A DNA stretch of 64,000 nucleotides from Schaalia canis (lineage in GTDB: Bacteria; Actinomycetota; Actinomycetes; Actinomycetales; Actinomycetaceae), in the NCBI RefSeq assembly GCF_003858455.1, contig NZ_RQZF01000001.1:62001-126000 (forward strand). The letters run 5' to 3'. Every line of letters starts with the position of its first letter. The first letter of the stretch is position 1. Positions 13,701-20,637 of this stretch are shown here, in pieces. The notes beneath the pieces are model-generated. The model was not told where the DNA came from. It saw nothing but the letters and a program-made list of their open reading frames with translations, and ran no database searches. Both the position numbers and the translations under genes were made by a program.

Positions 13701-14693
13701 ATGAGCCTCAACCACCTCATCACCATCCGCGACCTCGAATACCGTGAGGCCGTCCAGATTCTTGACACTGCCGAGGCCATGGCCGCCACCCAGTCGCGCC
13801 GCGTGAAAAAACTTCCCACCCTCCACGGACGCACGGTCGTCAACCTCTTCTTTGAAGATTCCACCCGCACGCGCCTGTCCTTCGAGGCCGCCGCAAAACG
13901 CCTCTCTGCAGACGTCATCAACTTCTCTGCCAAAGGCTCATCCCTCTCCAAGGGCGAATCCCTCAAGGACACGGCGCTGACACTTCAAGCAATGGGCGCT
14001 GACGCTGTCATCGTCCGCCACTCCGCCTCCGGCGCAGCACACCGCCTCGCACACGCCGGATGGATGAACCTGCCGGTCCTCAACGCGGGGGATGGCACTC
14101 ACCAGCACCCCACCCAGGCTCTGCTGGACGCCATGACTCTTCGACGTCATTTCAACCGAGACGCCTCCAACCCCGCGGTTGAACCCGTCGCACCAGGCAC
14201 CGACCTGAAGGGCGCAAAAGTCGTGATCGTCGGTGACATCTTGCACTCGCGTGTGGCTCGCTCCAATGTTGACCTGCTGCACCTGCTCGGCGCTGATGTC
14301 ACCCTGGTTGCTCCACCAACGCTCTTGCCTGTCGGTATTGAAAACTGGAACTGCGCGGTCGACTACAACCTTGACCGTGCCCTTGCCCAGGGCCCCGACG
14401 CTGTCATGATGCTGCGTGTCCAGCGTGAACGCATGAGCGCCGCAGGCGGTGGCTTCTTCCCCTCGCCCGGTGAGTACCACACCCAATATGGGCTGGACCG
14501 GCAGCGTTTCAACCGTCTGCCCGATCACACCATCATCATGCACCCAGGCCCCATGAACCGCGGCCTTGAAATCTGCGCTGAAGCAGCCGATTCTCCTCGC
14601 TCAGTCATTGTTGAACAGGTCGCCAACGGCGTCTCTGTCCGCATGGCTGCCCTCTACCTCCTCCTCGCCCCGGAAGGCTCCACCAATGACTGA
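13701..14693 (+). CDS. pyrB: Aspartate carbamoyltransferase catalytic chain
   Basis: Joins carbamoyl phosphate and aspartate, the committed pyrimidine step. The 330-residue protein carries the carbamoyl-phosphate motif [13 protein letters not shown] (STRTR at 54-58), the loop SKGESLKDT, and the aspartate-side motifs [20 protein letters not shown] and [12 protein letters not shown]. The ATG at 13701 has GGAAGGA at 9 nt; an ATG at 13692 overlaps pyrR and is too close to that RBS. No pyrI regulatory-chain gene follows, as usual in Gram-positives. The end overlaps pyrC by 8 nt. Confidence 0.96.
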
Positions 14694-15999
14694 CATCCTC
14701 ATCCGCAACGCCAATATCCTGGGCGAACACGTCGCCGACATCTACCTCGCAAACGGCGTCATTGTTGCCATTGGTGAAGGTGCAGCCTCACACGCTACTG
14801 ACACCACCCGCGTTATTGACGCTGATGGTCTGATCGCCCTACCGGGCCTTGTTGACCTGCACACCCACCTTCGTGAACCCGGCCAGACCGACGCTGAGAC
14901 CATCTTCACCGGCACCCGTGCAGCGGCTGTTGGCGGCTACACCTGCGTTCACGCCATGGCCAATACCAGCCCCGTAGCCGACACAGCCTCCGTTGTGGAA
15001 CAAGTCTGGCGCAAGGGCAAGGAAGCGGGATTCGTTGACGTTCGTCCCGTCGGCGCCGTCACCGAAGGGTTGGAAGGAAAGCACCTTTCCCGTATCGGTG
15101 GCATGGCAAACTCTAAGGCCCAAGTGCGCGTCTTCTCCGATGATGGCAAGTGCGTCTCTGACCCGGTGCTCATGCGCCGCGCCCTGGAATACGTGAAGGC
15201 TTTCGACGGCGTTGTCGCTCAGCACGCCCAGGACCCTGAACTCACCGACGGCGCTCAGATGAACGAATCTGAGCTGTCCGGCGAGCTGGGTTTGGCCGGA
15301 TGGCCTGCCGTGGCTGAAGAAGCCATTATCGCCCGCGACATCCTATTGGCTAAGCACGTGGGTTCGCGCCTGCACGTTTGCCACCTCTCCACCGCAGGTT
15401 CAGTCGAACTCATTCGTTGGGGTAAGCGCATGGGTGTCAACGTGACTGCCGAGGTCACACCCCACCACCTCATGCTCACCGAAGAACTCGCCGCAACCTA
15501 CGACCCGCTCTACAAGGTCAACCCTCCGCTTCGCACTGCCGCAGACGTTGAGGCAGTTCGTGAAGGTCTCGCTGATGGCACCATTGACATTGTCGGTACC
15601 GATCACGCACCCCATCCACTTGAGTCGAAGGACGTGGAGTGGAACATCGGTGCCTTTGGTATGACCGGGCTGGAAACCGCACTGCCGATTGTCATCACCA
15701 CCATGGTGGAAACTGGCCGCATGACGTGGGCTGATGTTGCTCGCGTGTTATCCACTACTCCCGCTCAGATTGGCCGCGTCGCAGACCAAGGGCAGGGGAT
15801 TGCTGAGGGCTCGCCCGCTCACCTCGCTCTTGTGGATCCCACCGTGCGTCGAGTGGTGGATCCTGCCTCTCAGTGGACCCGTTCGACGAACACGCCCTTT
15901 GTGGGGATGGAACTGTCTGGTCAGGTGATGTTCACGATCTTTGCCGGCCAGATCACCGTTGATGGCGGCATGCCACTTGTGACGGAGGACCGCGCATGA
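14686..15999 (+). CDS. pyrC: Dihydroorotase (class I type)
   Basis: Cyclises carbamoyl aspartate to dihydroorotate. The 437-residue amidohydrolase has the metal motif [17 protein letters not shown], the later ligands in [14 protein letters not shown] and [13 protein letters not shown], and the catalytic Asp in [17 protein letters not shown]. Size and motifs fit the class I bacterial enzyme encoded in pyr operons. The ATG overlaps the pyrB stop by 8 nt, and its own end overlaps the carA start by 4 nt. Confidence 0.96.
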
Positions 16000-16493
16000 G
16001 CAACGATATTGCCTACCTTATCTGCGATGACGGTCGAATCTTCACAGGACGTGCGTGGGGGGCTAAAGGCGTTCGCGCCGGTATCCTCAGCTTTGATACG
16101 CGAATGACCGGGTATCAGGCGGTACTTTCTGCACCTGAGCATGCAGATCGACTTGTTGTTATGACCACCCCGCATATTGGCAATGTTGGGGTGAATGATG
16201 AGGCTCCACGCGAGGGTTTCACCATCGCAGGCCTCATTGCTCGTGAGCCCGCGCGGCGCGCCTCAAATTGGCGCTCCACTGGCGACTTTAATGAGCTTCT
16301 CGAAGCGAAGGGCGTTATCGGCATTGCCGGTATTGACACTCGCGCGCTCACCCTCCATATCCGTAATCACGAGGGAATCTGCGGAGCTATCATCTCGGGT
16401 GAGGCCCTGCCTGCTGGGGCGGCACAACTCACCGATGAGGTCCGCACTCAGCTTTCTCAGATTCTTACTGCAGCCATGGAGGAACAGCACTGA
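15996..16493 (+). CDS. carA: Truncated carbamoyl-phosphate synthase small subunit (N-terminal domain only)
   Basis: Normal CarA (about 360-400 residues) has an N-terminal domain that binds CarB and a C-terminal class I glutamine amidotransferase domain that supplies ammonia. This 165-residue protein contains the N-terminal domain alone: [62 protein letters not shown] and [15 protein letters not shown]. It then ends [10 protein letters not shown], and carB starts at the stop codon (TGATG). No Cys-His-Glu triad motif and no remnant DNA is present, so the glutaminase domain is cleanly absent. The frame is intact and coupled to both neighbours, which argues for a functional gene rather than a pseudogene. 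Confidence 0.9.
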
Positions 16494-19400
16494 TGCCTCG
16501 ACGTACCGATATCCGCTCCGTCCTCGTTATTGGTTCTGGTCCGATCGTCATTGGGCAGGCCTGCGAATTTGACTACTCGGGCACCCAGGCATGCCGTGTC
16601 CTCAAAGACGAGGGCGTGCGCGTCATCCTCGTCAATTCAAATCCGGCAACCATTATGACCGACCCGGAAATGGCTGATGCCACCTACGTCGAACCCATCA
16701 CACCTGACGTCGTGGCAAGCATTATTGAGAAAGAACGCCCTGATGCCCTGCTGCCAACGCTGGGTGGCCAGACCGCGTTGAATACCGCCATGGCCCTTGC
16801 CGAGCAGGGCGTATTGGAGCGTTTCAACGTTGAACTCATCGGCGCGAACGCTGAGGCAATCCGAGCCGGTGAAGACCGTGACGAGTTTAAGGCCATCGTC
16901 GAAAAGTGCGGTGCAGAGGTTGCACGCTCGGTGATTGCCCACACCATGGACGAATGTCACGCCGCTGCCGCCGAACTTGGCTACCCCCTGGTTGTGCGTC
17001 CCTCCTTCACGATGGGAGGCCTGGGCTCGGGTTTTGCCTACACCCCTGAAGATCTTGAGCGCATTGCGGGACAGGGCTTAGCTGCATCAATTACCACTGA
17101 GGTTCTGCTCGAAGAATCCATCCTCGGATGGAAAGAGATCGAACTTGAGCTCATGCGCGACACCGCTGACAACGTCATCTGCGTGTGCTCGATTGAAAAC
17201 GTTGACCCCGTGGGCGTCCACACGGGCGACTCCATCACGGTTGCTCCTGCATTGACCTTGACGGATAAAGAACTCAGCGATCTTATTGAGGTCGGCAAGT
17301 CTATTATCCGCACAGTTGGTCTGGACTCAGGTGGATGCAACATCCAATTTGCTGTTGATCCGACCAATGGCCGGGCTATCTGTATTGAGATGAATCCGCG
17401 TGTGTCGCGTTCTTCGGCTCTGGCCTCGAAAGCAACGGGCTTCCCCATTGCCAAAATGGCGGCGCGTCTGGCATTGGGCTACACGCTGGATGAGATTCCC
17501 AATGACATTACGGGCACTACACCGGCTTCATTCGAGCCAACGATTGACTACATTGTCGCGAAAGTTCCGCGGTTCACCTTCGAAAAGTTCCCTGAGGCCG
17601 ATCCGACCTTGACCACTGCCATGAAGGCCGTTGGCGAGGCTATGGCAATCGGCCATACCTACAGCGAAGCCCTGCAGAAAGCGCTGCGCTCAATTGACAA
17701 GAAGGGCGTTCAATTCCACTGGGAGGGACCCGTTCCCAACGCGGAAGAAACCGCCGATTTGCTCCGCGCTGCCGCCACGCCAACGGAGTTCCGCCTTGTT
17801 CAGGTCCAGCAGGCCATTCGTGGTGGGGCCACCGTTGAGGACCTCTTTGAAGCGACTGCGATTGACCCGTGGTTCCTTGACCAGATGGTGCTTTTGGATG
17901 AGATCGCGCAGGAGTTGATCAATGCTCCGGCTCTGACGCGTGACCTGCTTATCCAGGCGAAACGTCATGGCTTTTCTGATCGGCAGATCGCCTCTATGCG
18001 TCGGATTTCGGAAATGACCGTCCGTGAGATTCGCGCGGCATTTGACGTTCATCCTGTCTATAAGACGGTTGACACCTGCGCGGGGCAGTTCAGCACGAAT
18101 ACGCCCTACTTGTATTCCACCTATGAGGAGGAAACCGAGGTCTGCCCGCGCGAGCGTGAGGCTGTCATTATCTTGGGTGCTGGACCGAACCGTATTGGCC
18201 AGGGGATTGAGTTCGATTATTCCTGCGTGCATGCCACCATGGCTCTGCGTGACCGGTACGAGACGGTCATGGTCAATTGCAACCCAGAGACCGTGTCAAC
18301 GGATTATGACATTTCCGACCGACTGTACTTTGAACCATTGACTCTTGAGGATGTCCTCGAGGTCTATCGTGCGGAGTGTGCGGCTGGCCCGGTTGCCGGT
18401 ATGCTCGTTCAACTCGGTGGGCAAACCCCGTTATCCCTCGCTGCTGATCTGGCTGCTGCCGGGGTGCCGATTCTTGGTACGTCGCCTGCTGCTATTGATC
18501 TTGCTGAGGATCGGGAGGAGTTTGGAAAGGTCCTGGCTCAGGCGAATCTTCCTGCACCTGCGCACGACGTGGCTTACACGCCCTCTGTTGTTCACGCGGT
18601 CGCGGAAAAAATCGGGTACCCGATTCTTGTTCGCCCCAGTTTTGTTCTGGGCGGGCGCGGCATGGAAGTCATTAATGATCGTGCGGGCCTGGATCGCTAC
18701 CTTGATCGCCCTGACTTGGAGGCGCTTTTCGAGCGCGGTCCGCTACTGATCGACCGTTTCCTTGATGCTGCGGTTGAGATTGACGTCGATGCCCTCTTTG
18801 ACGGTGAGGAACTGTTTATGGGGGCCGTCATGGAACATATCGAAGAGGCCGGCGTTCATTCAGGCGACTCTGCCTGCGTGCTGCCGCCGATGACTCTTTC
18901 AGCTCGCGAGGTAGCCCGCATTGCTGAATCCACCGAAGCGATTGCGCGAGGCGTGGGCGTGAGAGGACTGATTAATATTCAGTTCGCCCTCGTGTCGAAT
19001 ACCCTTTACGTCATCGAAGCCAATCCTCGCGCTTCACGCACGGTTCCCTTTGCCTCGAAGGCAACAGGTGTGCCCTTAGCTAAAGCGGTTGCGTTGATTC
19101 AGGTGGGGGAGAGCATCGCTTCTTTGCGTGCGGCGGGAATCCTTCCCGCCGAGGACGCGCGCACTATTCCCGATCATTCGTCGATCGCAGTTAAGGCAGC
19201 AGTCTTGCCTTTTAAGCGTTTCCGCCATGCGGATGGATCCGTTGTTGATTCAATCCTTGGCCCGGAGATGCGTTCGACGGGCGAGGTGATGGGCATTGAT
19301 CGGGACTTTCCGACGGCCTTTGCTAAGTCTCAATCGGCTGCTTTCACCGATTTTCCGACGGAAGGTACCGTCTTTGTGTCGATTGCGGATTCGGATAAGC

Positions 19401-19792
19401 GCGCCATTGTCTTTCCTCTGATTCGCTTGCAAGAACTCGGCTTTGAGATTCTTGCGACAGAGGGAACTGCGTCAGTTCTTCATCGGAATGGTATTCGCGC
19501 TCAGGTGGTGCGTAAGAGTTCCGATGGGAGGGGTCCCAATGGGGAGCCCACTGTTGTTGACATGATTAATGACGGCCTGATCGACATTATTGTGAACACC
19601 CCGCAAAGCTCTGAGGATCGTCATGACGGCTATCAGATTCGTACGGCTGCAATGTCTCATGATCGGACGATCATTACGACTTTGCAGGCCTTCCATGCGG
19701 CTGTGCAAGCGATTGAGGTGCGTTTACGTGGCCAGTACCGCGTGAAGTCCCTGCAGGAGTGGGACGTGGCCCGTCAGGAGGGTGCGCGATGA
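16493..19792 (+). CDS. carB: Carbamoyl-phosphate synthase large subunit
   Basis: The synthetase subunit, which makes carbamoyl phosphate from bicarbonate, ammonia and two ATP. The 1099-residue protein is full length: two homologous ATP-grasp halves (first [20 protein letters not shown] and [15 protein letters not shown]; second [20 protein letters not shown] and [14 protein letters not shown]), separated by the oligomerisation domain at about 400-550, and a C-terminal MGS-like allosteric domain ([17 protein letters not shown]). Both halves keep [18 protein letters not shown]-type motifs. The question here is its ammonia source, because the paired CarA lacks the glutaminase domain. Overlaps pyrF by 4 nt. 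Confidence 0.97.
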
Positions 19793-20637
19793 GCATGGTG
19801 TCTTTTGGGGATCGGCTCTACGCCGCGATGCGTGCGCGTGGGCCGGTCTGTGTGGGGATTGACCCTCATCCGGGTTTGCTGTCGGCGTGGGGCCTACCGA
19901 TGACGGTCGACGGCTTACGGAGCTTTAGTCTGACGGTGGTGGAGGCTTTGGGTGGCCGTGCCGCAGCTTTCAAACCGCAGGCTGCATTCTTTGAGCGTTT
20001 CGGCTCGCGGGGCGTTGCTGTCCTCGAAGAGGTGATTGCGGCCTCCCGCTCAACAGGTACCTTGTGCATCGTTGATGCTAAACGCGGGGATATTGGCTCC
20101 ACGATGGAGGGCTATGCTGATGCCTTCCTTGATGACGCTTCTGCCTTAGCTGGCGACGCTGTGACTCTGTCGCCTTACCTTGGTGTAGGGGCGCTTGCTC
20201 CAGCACTTGACCGTGCCGCAGCCCAAGGGCGAGGTGTTTTCGTGCTTGCTTTGACGTCTAATCCGCAGGGGAAAACGGTGCAACATGCCCGTAATGCGGA
20301 TGGAGTAAGTGTTGCAGCACGCGTCATTGAGGAGTTAGCAACATTCAACGGGACATGTGATTTTGAACACGCTGGCCCTGTTGGTGCAGTTATCGGAGCA
20401 ACCGTCGGAACGGCTGTTCAGGATCTCCAGATTGATTGTGGGCATATGCGCGGGATAATTTTGGCACCCGGAATTGGTGCCCAGGGTGCAGGGGCTGAGC
20501 AGGTAAAACAAGTTTTCGGCGGCGTCGAAGATCGAGTACTTGCTTCAACTTCTCGAGCAGTTCTTGCGGCAGGGCCAAATATCTCCCAACTACGAAAAGC
20601 TCACGACAAGGCTGTTCAAGAACTGGCCGAAATGTGA
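19789..20637 (+). CDS. pyrF: Orotidine-5'-phosphate decarboxylase (type 2)
   Basis: Last step to UMP. The 282-residue protein has [16 protein letters not shown] near the start, the [11 protein letters not shown] segment and the active-site motif [20 protein letters not shown]. These mark the longer type 2 family found in mycobacteria and myxobacteria, rather than the 230-residue E. coli type. The ATG overlaps the carB stop (ATGA); an upstream in-frame codon lies inside carB. It ends the operon and is followed by a strong hairpin. pyrD is not in this cluster. Confidence 0.95.

Follow-up and report, generated by a model that had tools for sequence, protein, structure and literature searches.

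The closest described relative of the locus analysed here is the E. coli-type CPSase (CarAB, CPS II, EC 6.3.5.5). Excerpts of PMC6245113 name glutamine as its physiological nitrogen donor, by extension that of all bacterial CPSases, and state that the E. coli enzyme requires very high ammonia, a level that is likely not physiological. Vertebrate CPS I (CPS1, EC 6.3.4.16) has no working glutaminase, being one chain with a dead glutaminase-like domain, and the human enzyme possesses a conserved gate formed by Cys648, Ala667 and Ala729, as given in the relevant part of PMC4655335. Single-domain NadE offers a further parallel, as it is an amidotransferase-kind synthetase without a glutaminase that has been shown to use free ammonia, although it has another fold and belongs with another glutaminase class; its ammonia form is thought to be ancestral, whereas the form described below is derived by loss. 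Table 1 of the survey PMC3376133, which also describes the ammonia-using NadE and covers ∼600 genomes, has no carAB without glutaminase in its 'No Glnse' column. A literature search limited to open-licence papers found no earlier report of a truncated bacterial CarA, though one may exist.

The window, a stretch of 64,000 nucleotides from a contig of Schaalia canis (NZ_RQZF01000001.1), contains a pyr operon in which carA encodes the N-terminal domain of the small subunit followed by a short tail (Table 1). Like E. coli CarAB, the locus has overlapping carA and carB genes, the usual CarB domains and an N-domain that aligns to E. coli CarA residues 5–141. Unlike E. coli CarAB, it is wholly devoid of the class I glutaminase, Glu29 and Ser47 of the N-domain are replaced, and CarB is altered at positions that are conserved beside full-length CarA. 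With CPS1 the locus has in common that there is no working glutaminase, that an N-terminal S1-type domain is present (matching residues 34–172 of 5dot), and that the inner gate residues are kept (the gate as described in PMC4655335). CPS1, however, is one chain in which the glutaminase-like domain is dead, while this locus has lost the domain altogether and splits the enzyme over two genes.

Table 1. Features of the pyr operon around the short carA gene, in window coordinates.
Feature	Position	Strand	Description	Basis
pyrB (by reading)	13701..14693	+	aspartate carbamoyltransferase	ORF and sequence
pyrC	14683..15999	+	dihydroorotase; overlaps carA	Pfam DHOase/amidohydrolase; ORF with longer alternative start
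carA	15996..16493	+	165 aa, N-domain and short tail, without glutaminase domain	ORF; PF00988 only
CPSase small-chain domain PF00988	16017..16385	+	CarA residues 8–130	Pfam
Tail of short CarA	16386..16490	+	CarA residues 131–165; inter-domain linker likeness	shuffle test
TGATG	16491..16495	+	carA stop/carB start overlap of one base	
carB	16493..19792	+	complete CPSase large subunit, 1099 aa	Pfam domains; TIGR01369
CarB residues 212–281	17126..17335	+	contain 12 of the 18 positions altered beside short CarA	
CarB residues 340–349	17510..17539	+	four of the 18 positions (E. coli 345, 347–349), none altered in own genome	
pyrF (by reading)	19759..20637	+	orotidine phosphate decarboxylase; downstream of carB	ORF

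A preliminary description of this DNA had taken CarA to be an N-terminal domain only, lacking the glutaminase, and the profile searches bear this out. PF00988 (117.5 bits against a cut-off of 27) is the sole Pfam match in the protein, the class I glutaminase domain with its Cys-His-Glu triad is absent (no PF00117 in CarA), and the whole-CarA model TIGR01368 (NCBIfam) aligns over model positions 1–134 of 361 only, with a score of 117.3 that stays below the family cut-off of 307.35. CarB scores 1363 bits with TIGR01369 against a cut-off of 1027 and has the full Pfam domain set, which places it within its family. The product of the putative pyrB is the expected consumer of carbamoyl phosphate. 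The tight coupling to pyrC and carB noted earlier was likewise found, as carA shares four bases at its 5′ end with the end of pyrC (15999) and one base at its 3′ end with the start of carB (16493). The companion statement that no remnant DNA is left holds for the glutaminase domain itself and has to be narrowed for the tail, which resembles the inter-domain linker of full-length CarAs (2 of 300 shuffles reach its score) and does not match the CarA C-terminus (250 of 300 shuffles are as good). It also fails in two relatives, G008 and G003, where the tail retains a piece like the C-terminus of the lost domain (matched by 0 and 3 of 300 shuffles, respectively). This points to an internal in-frame deletion in these two genomes, the scar being clear in G008 and likely in G003. 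None of the other tails tested against the CarA C-terminus exceeded its shuffles, with the weak exceptions of G234 (21 of 300) and G235 (47 of 300).

The assembly of this genome (G000; 2.58 Mb in 76 contigs, 99.88% complete) gives no support to a second CarA or to a separately encoded CarA-type glutaminase, both of which had been raised as possibilities together with a search of the genome. PF00988 matches once in a profile search of the contigs, and the three PF00117 matches are GuaA, PurQ and a 231-aa class I amidotransferase, with no free-standing CarA-type glutaminase among them. As PurQ was picked up at 27.5 bits in the PF00117 search, compared with 141–183 bits for the glutaminase domain in the full-length CarAs of relatives, a CarA glutaminase in the contigs would have shown. 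The 231-aa protein (L042:2094-2786, contig C3) is free-standing and lies below every NCBIfam cut-off; its nearest models are PRK07053 and PRK09065, with best scores of 75.5 and 73.4 against cut-offs of 250 and 205.

Across the 213 genomes of the same family that were searched, PF00988 was found in 167 and CarB in 179. A comparison of the two match lists gives 13 genomes with CarB and without CarA, 33 with neither, and a single one (G251) with PF00988 and without CarB, its match being at a contig end. Loci were read where the frame was short or the score low, together with a set of full-length ones; the other family CarAs were assigned from their frame length and score only. CarAs consisting of the N-domain only number 28, of which 27 belong to this family (129–200 aa) and one to another family of the same order (G107, 159 aa, with carB ∼19 kb away). 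The one-base overlap of carA stop and carB start recurs in 22 of the 28, with starts chosen by script. The genes overlap by ten bases in G213 and G216 and are separated by gaps of 3, 5 and 21 bases in G248, G217 and G169. The near relative G001 has the same carA–carB junction as the window, with a carA 81% and a carB 95% identical, and G059, G142, G236, G242 and G245 are single-contig genomes with the short-CarA architecture. G150, in which Glu29 and Ser47 are replaced, is counted as short with less certainty because its carB lies in two frames. Through an identical CarB, G030 could be linked to Schaalia suimastitidis and G014 to an Actinomycetaceae bin. Three genomes (G246, G187 and G251) were left out of the CarA counts, the CarB of G187 being retained as 'full'. 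In G187 (L190) a full-length carA is spread over two frames and in G246 (L181) carA and carB are both fragmented, in each case through decay or sequencing trouble.

In a sample of 396 genomes from the phylum, 347 exceeded the TIGR01368 cut-off and 49 fell below it; one of the 49 is G000, 47 were re-searched with PF00988, and the remaining one is probably G552, judging by E-value. N-domain matches appeared in nine of these 47, all of them at a contig end or within ∼75 bases of one, and therefore no further short CarA is shown in the phylum sample. The earlier remark that such a gene would be unusual for a bacterial pyr operon accordingly stands for the phylum sample and not for the family, in which the state is common. 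The comparison of carA length in relatives that had been proposed, with 27 family genomes read as short, agrees with the suggestion of a settled architecture, as does the purifying selection on the gene.

Short carA evolves faster than carB, yet under clear constraint. Its dN/dS (Nei-Gojobori) is 0.06–0.27 over 11 pairs, compared with 0.02–0.09 for carB over the nine pairs with computable dS, the ratios being rough because dS is high in many pairs and the carB pair G234/G235 covers 210 codons. Glu29 and Ser47 (E. coli numbering), the latter of which we take to contact glutamine, are both present in 105 of 105 full-length CarAs (26 from the family and order, G065 included and G187 excluded, and 79 named ones) versus none of the 28 short CarAs, which also have nothing in the Cys269 and His353 columns. 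Ten other residues (Gly12, Gly17, Gly24, His59, Gly61, Gly79, Arg83, Asp114, Thr115 and Arg116) are conserved in all 28. This is what would be expected if the side of the N-domain that serves the glutaminase had been freed and the core that serves CarB retained; we infer which side serves which partner.

On the CarB tree (69 rows: 28 short, 27 full, 13 without CarA and 1 with a dead CarA), a quick tree that serves as a proxy for the species tree, the label 'short' needs nine changes, which is also the number forced by the well-supported branches. The same number results from a 57-row tree, likewise a quick one, from which the distant CarBs and the patch columns were omitted. Nine changes fit eight losses and a later loss of the whole carA in G244. 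The short clades are G000 with G001; G003 with G008; ten species of genus code g23, the eleventh member read (G219) being full; G059, G169, G241–243, G245, G247 and G248; G234 with G235; G236; G142 with G150; and G107. Loss of the glutaminase domain thus seems, from the trees, to have happened several separate times. A single origin, with all short rows forced into one clade, was rejected with p-AU 2e-48, a value obtained on the quick tree by a test that presumes a group defined in advance of the tree, a condition that does not apply here.

Two further loci have neither an ordinary full-length CarA nor a separate short one. In G194 (L191; INTERMEDIATE) a full-length CarA with a dead glutaminase triad stands beside CarB, the equivalents of Cys269, Glu355, Lys202, Ser47 and Glu29 being Gly, Gly, Ala, Ala and Lys, respectively; all five residues are intact in its sister G043. 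In a Micrococcales bin (L087:3955-7815, WRET01000015.1) one frame of 1286 aa contains PF00988 at residues 15–140 and then the CarB domains, with no PF00117 in the frame at E up to 0.001 in this single bin. This protein, in which Ser47 is missing but Glu29 present, is one chain as is CPS1, and it constitutes a ninth case besides the eight clades, with the N-domain fused to CarB.

CarB itself differs where CarA is short. The reference set comprises the 550 CarB positions with a conservation of 95% or more among 26 full-CarA genomes (G187 included, the distant G065 excluded). Of these, 18 are altered in four or more of the eight short clades, namely 221, 227–230, 250, 259, 262, 265, 269, 278, 279, 345, 347–349, 536 and 548. 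The carboxyphosphate domain contains sixteen of these and the oligomerisation domain two, with none in the other half of CarB; lowering the limit to three clades gives 27 positions, one of them in the other half (1062). According to excerpts of PMC6245113, the carboxyphosphate and oligomerisation domains are the two CarB domains contacted by the small subunit. Pseudo-groups drawn from full-CarA lineages had a mean of 0.84 such sites and a maximum of 8 in 300 draws, compared with 17.5 (minimum 13) for the real short clades against the same reduced references. Independent pairs all point the same way (10 of 10, sign test p 0.002), the sites having been chosen on these same rows.

Outside that sample, the CarA-less genomes G039 and G244 are altered at 14 and 15 of the 18 positions; both are more divergent elsewhere too (45 and 37 altered among the 532 remaining conserved sites, against a median of 20 for the named loci). 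The fused L087 is altered at 10 (one a gap) and the dead G194 at 7. The 79 named full-CarA loci show no alteration in 55 cases, one in 17, two in 5 and three in 2. Among other genomes with full CarA, G037 has one altered position, G043, with its intact triad, has four (three of them common with G194), and the distant G065 has six, each identical to the E. coli residue. The genome of the window is altered at only 8 of the 18, and within residues 212–281 these are 229, 230, 259, 262, 265, 269 and 279, to which position 216 can be added. At position 216, 25 of the 26 full genomes carry Tyr or Phe, the exception being G043 with Ile, and all 28 short ones carry Ile or Leu. In these alignments, the CarB changes are linked with a short or missing CarA and recur across clades. 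The inner ammonia gate is mostly retained in the short set, with Ala251 and Ala314 in 28 of 28 and Cys232 in 23, Thr taking its place in five. The gate residues of CPS1 presumably correspond to these E. coli CarB positions 232, 251 and 314. The catalytic ATP-grasp positions that were checked in CarB of the short set are conserved.

The reading that these sequences make very probable is that of a working CPSase without glutamine use, in which CarA would be a structural subunit and free ammonia the nitrogen donor. The reduced N-domain most likely would remain bound to CarB, much as the S1 domain of CPS1; CarB would draw free ammonia from solution, the ammonia would reach the carboxyphosphate site through the conserved inner gate, and the carbamoyl phosphate produced would supply the pyrimidine pathway of the same operon. 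We infer the use of ammonia in the cell, its path and the binding of short CarA to CarB. The retained gate, the lost glutaminase and the altered surface in the contacting domains together fit direct ammonia use. Retention of the N-domain as a support, or as part of an ammonia inlet, would fit as well. Free ammonia was among the meanings offered in the preliminary description, and the recurrence of the architecture with matching CarB changes favours it as the best reading. Its weak point is the very high ammonia need of the E. coli CPSase reported in the excerpts of PMC6245113. Set against the ammonia-dependent CPS I kind (EC 6.3.4.16), the enzyme by its sequence contains no working glutaminase, but its two moieties are not on a single chain, there being two genes here and one chain in L087 only; an N-acetylglutamate requirement is not expected. 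We propose more tentatively, as a possibility that we do not yet favour over its negation, that an ammonia-run bacterial CPSase arose about nine times in Actinomycetota through no more than the loss of the glutaminase domain, eight times within one order and, of these, mostly within a single family. The N-domain would have been retained because it walls one side of an inlet through which ammonia enters from outside; such a role has been proposed for the N-terminal moiety in human CPS1. In CarB, the inlet would have been reshaped each time in the same region.

If a glutaminase acting in trans were to feed CarB, glutamine would still be needed, and the 231-aa class I amidotransferase, which has no assigned partner and only the low NCBIfam scores given above, would be a candidate for that role. 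The models nearest to it, however, are GuaA-like stand-alone amidotransferases and not CarA; in G057, a genome with CarB only, PF00117 matches once (E up to 0.1), in a frame that at 589 aa has the size of GuaA; and the altered CarB positions suggest that the former docking surface is no longer maintained. We regard such an arrangement as very improbable.

That carAB is decaying, with the enzyme out of use and short CarA a stage on the way to losing the pathway, is a view to which the 33 family genomes with neither gene lend some weight, along with the loss of carA within a short clade in G244 and the broken carA and carB of G246. It sits badly with the low dN/dS of both genes (for carB where computable), with the conservation of the catalytic CarB positions checked, and with a short state common to ten species of one genus code as well as to other clades, and we consider it very improbable. 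The possibility that a sequencing or assembly error fused carA to carB, which the 76 contigs of the assembly might bring to mind, is hardly credible. Because the near relative G001 has the identical junction, an assembly error confined to this locus is very unlikely; the architecture is found in the five single-contig genomes, and the replacement of Glu29 and Ser47 in 28 of 28 short CarAs speaks against it as well.

In these bacteria a classic channelling enzyme has had one domain removed by nature several times with the rest left in place. Sister genomes that differ in having the domain, the dead intermediate in G194, the L087 fusion, the CarB-only relatives and the co-changing residues are direct test material, which can show the role of each half of the small subunit and the route by which ammonia enters. 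The short CarA also bears on nitrogen handling in these bacteria.

Some other observations were made in the course of the searches. A search with PF06418 (CTP synthase) finds nothing in G000 or in 34 of the 118 relatives covered, 14 of these 34 being taken as negative by their absence among the matches listed. The PF06418-negative genomes include the single-contig G002, G004, G057 and G059, and all six short-CarA family genomes in this search besides G000; the domain is also missing from many full-CarA genomes. In genus code g24 (L045, which is G057, and L216–L224), eight of nine genomes have CarB and no CarA. The CarB of this group is 44–47% identical to that of the window, and the gene order in G057 by reading is pyrC-carB-pyrK-pyrD-pyrF-pyrE-pyrB. 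Three genomes of genus code g15 (G240, G239 and G238; L213–L215) have a distant CarB, 46–50% identical, and no CarA match, other members of that genus code having a full or a short CarA. Finally, carB is present in two copies in G176.
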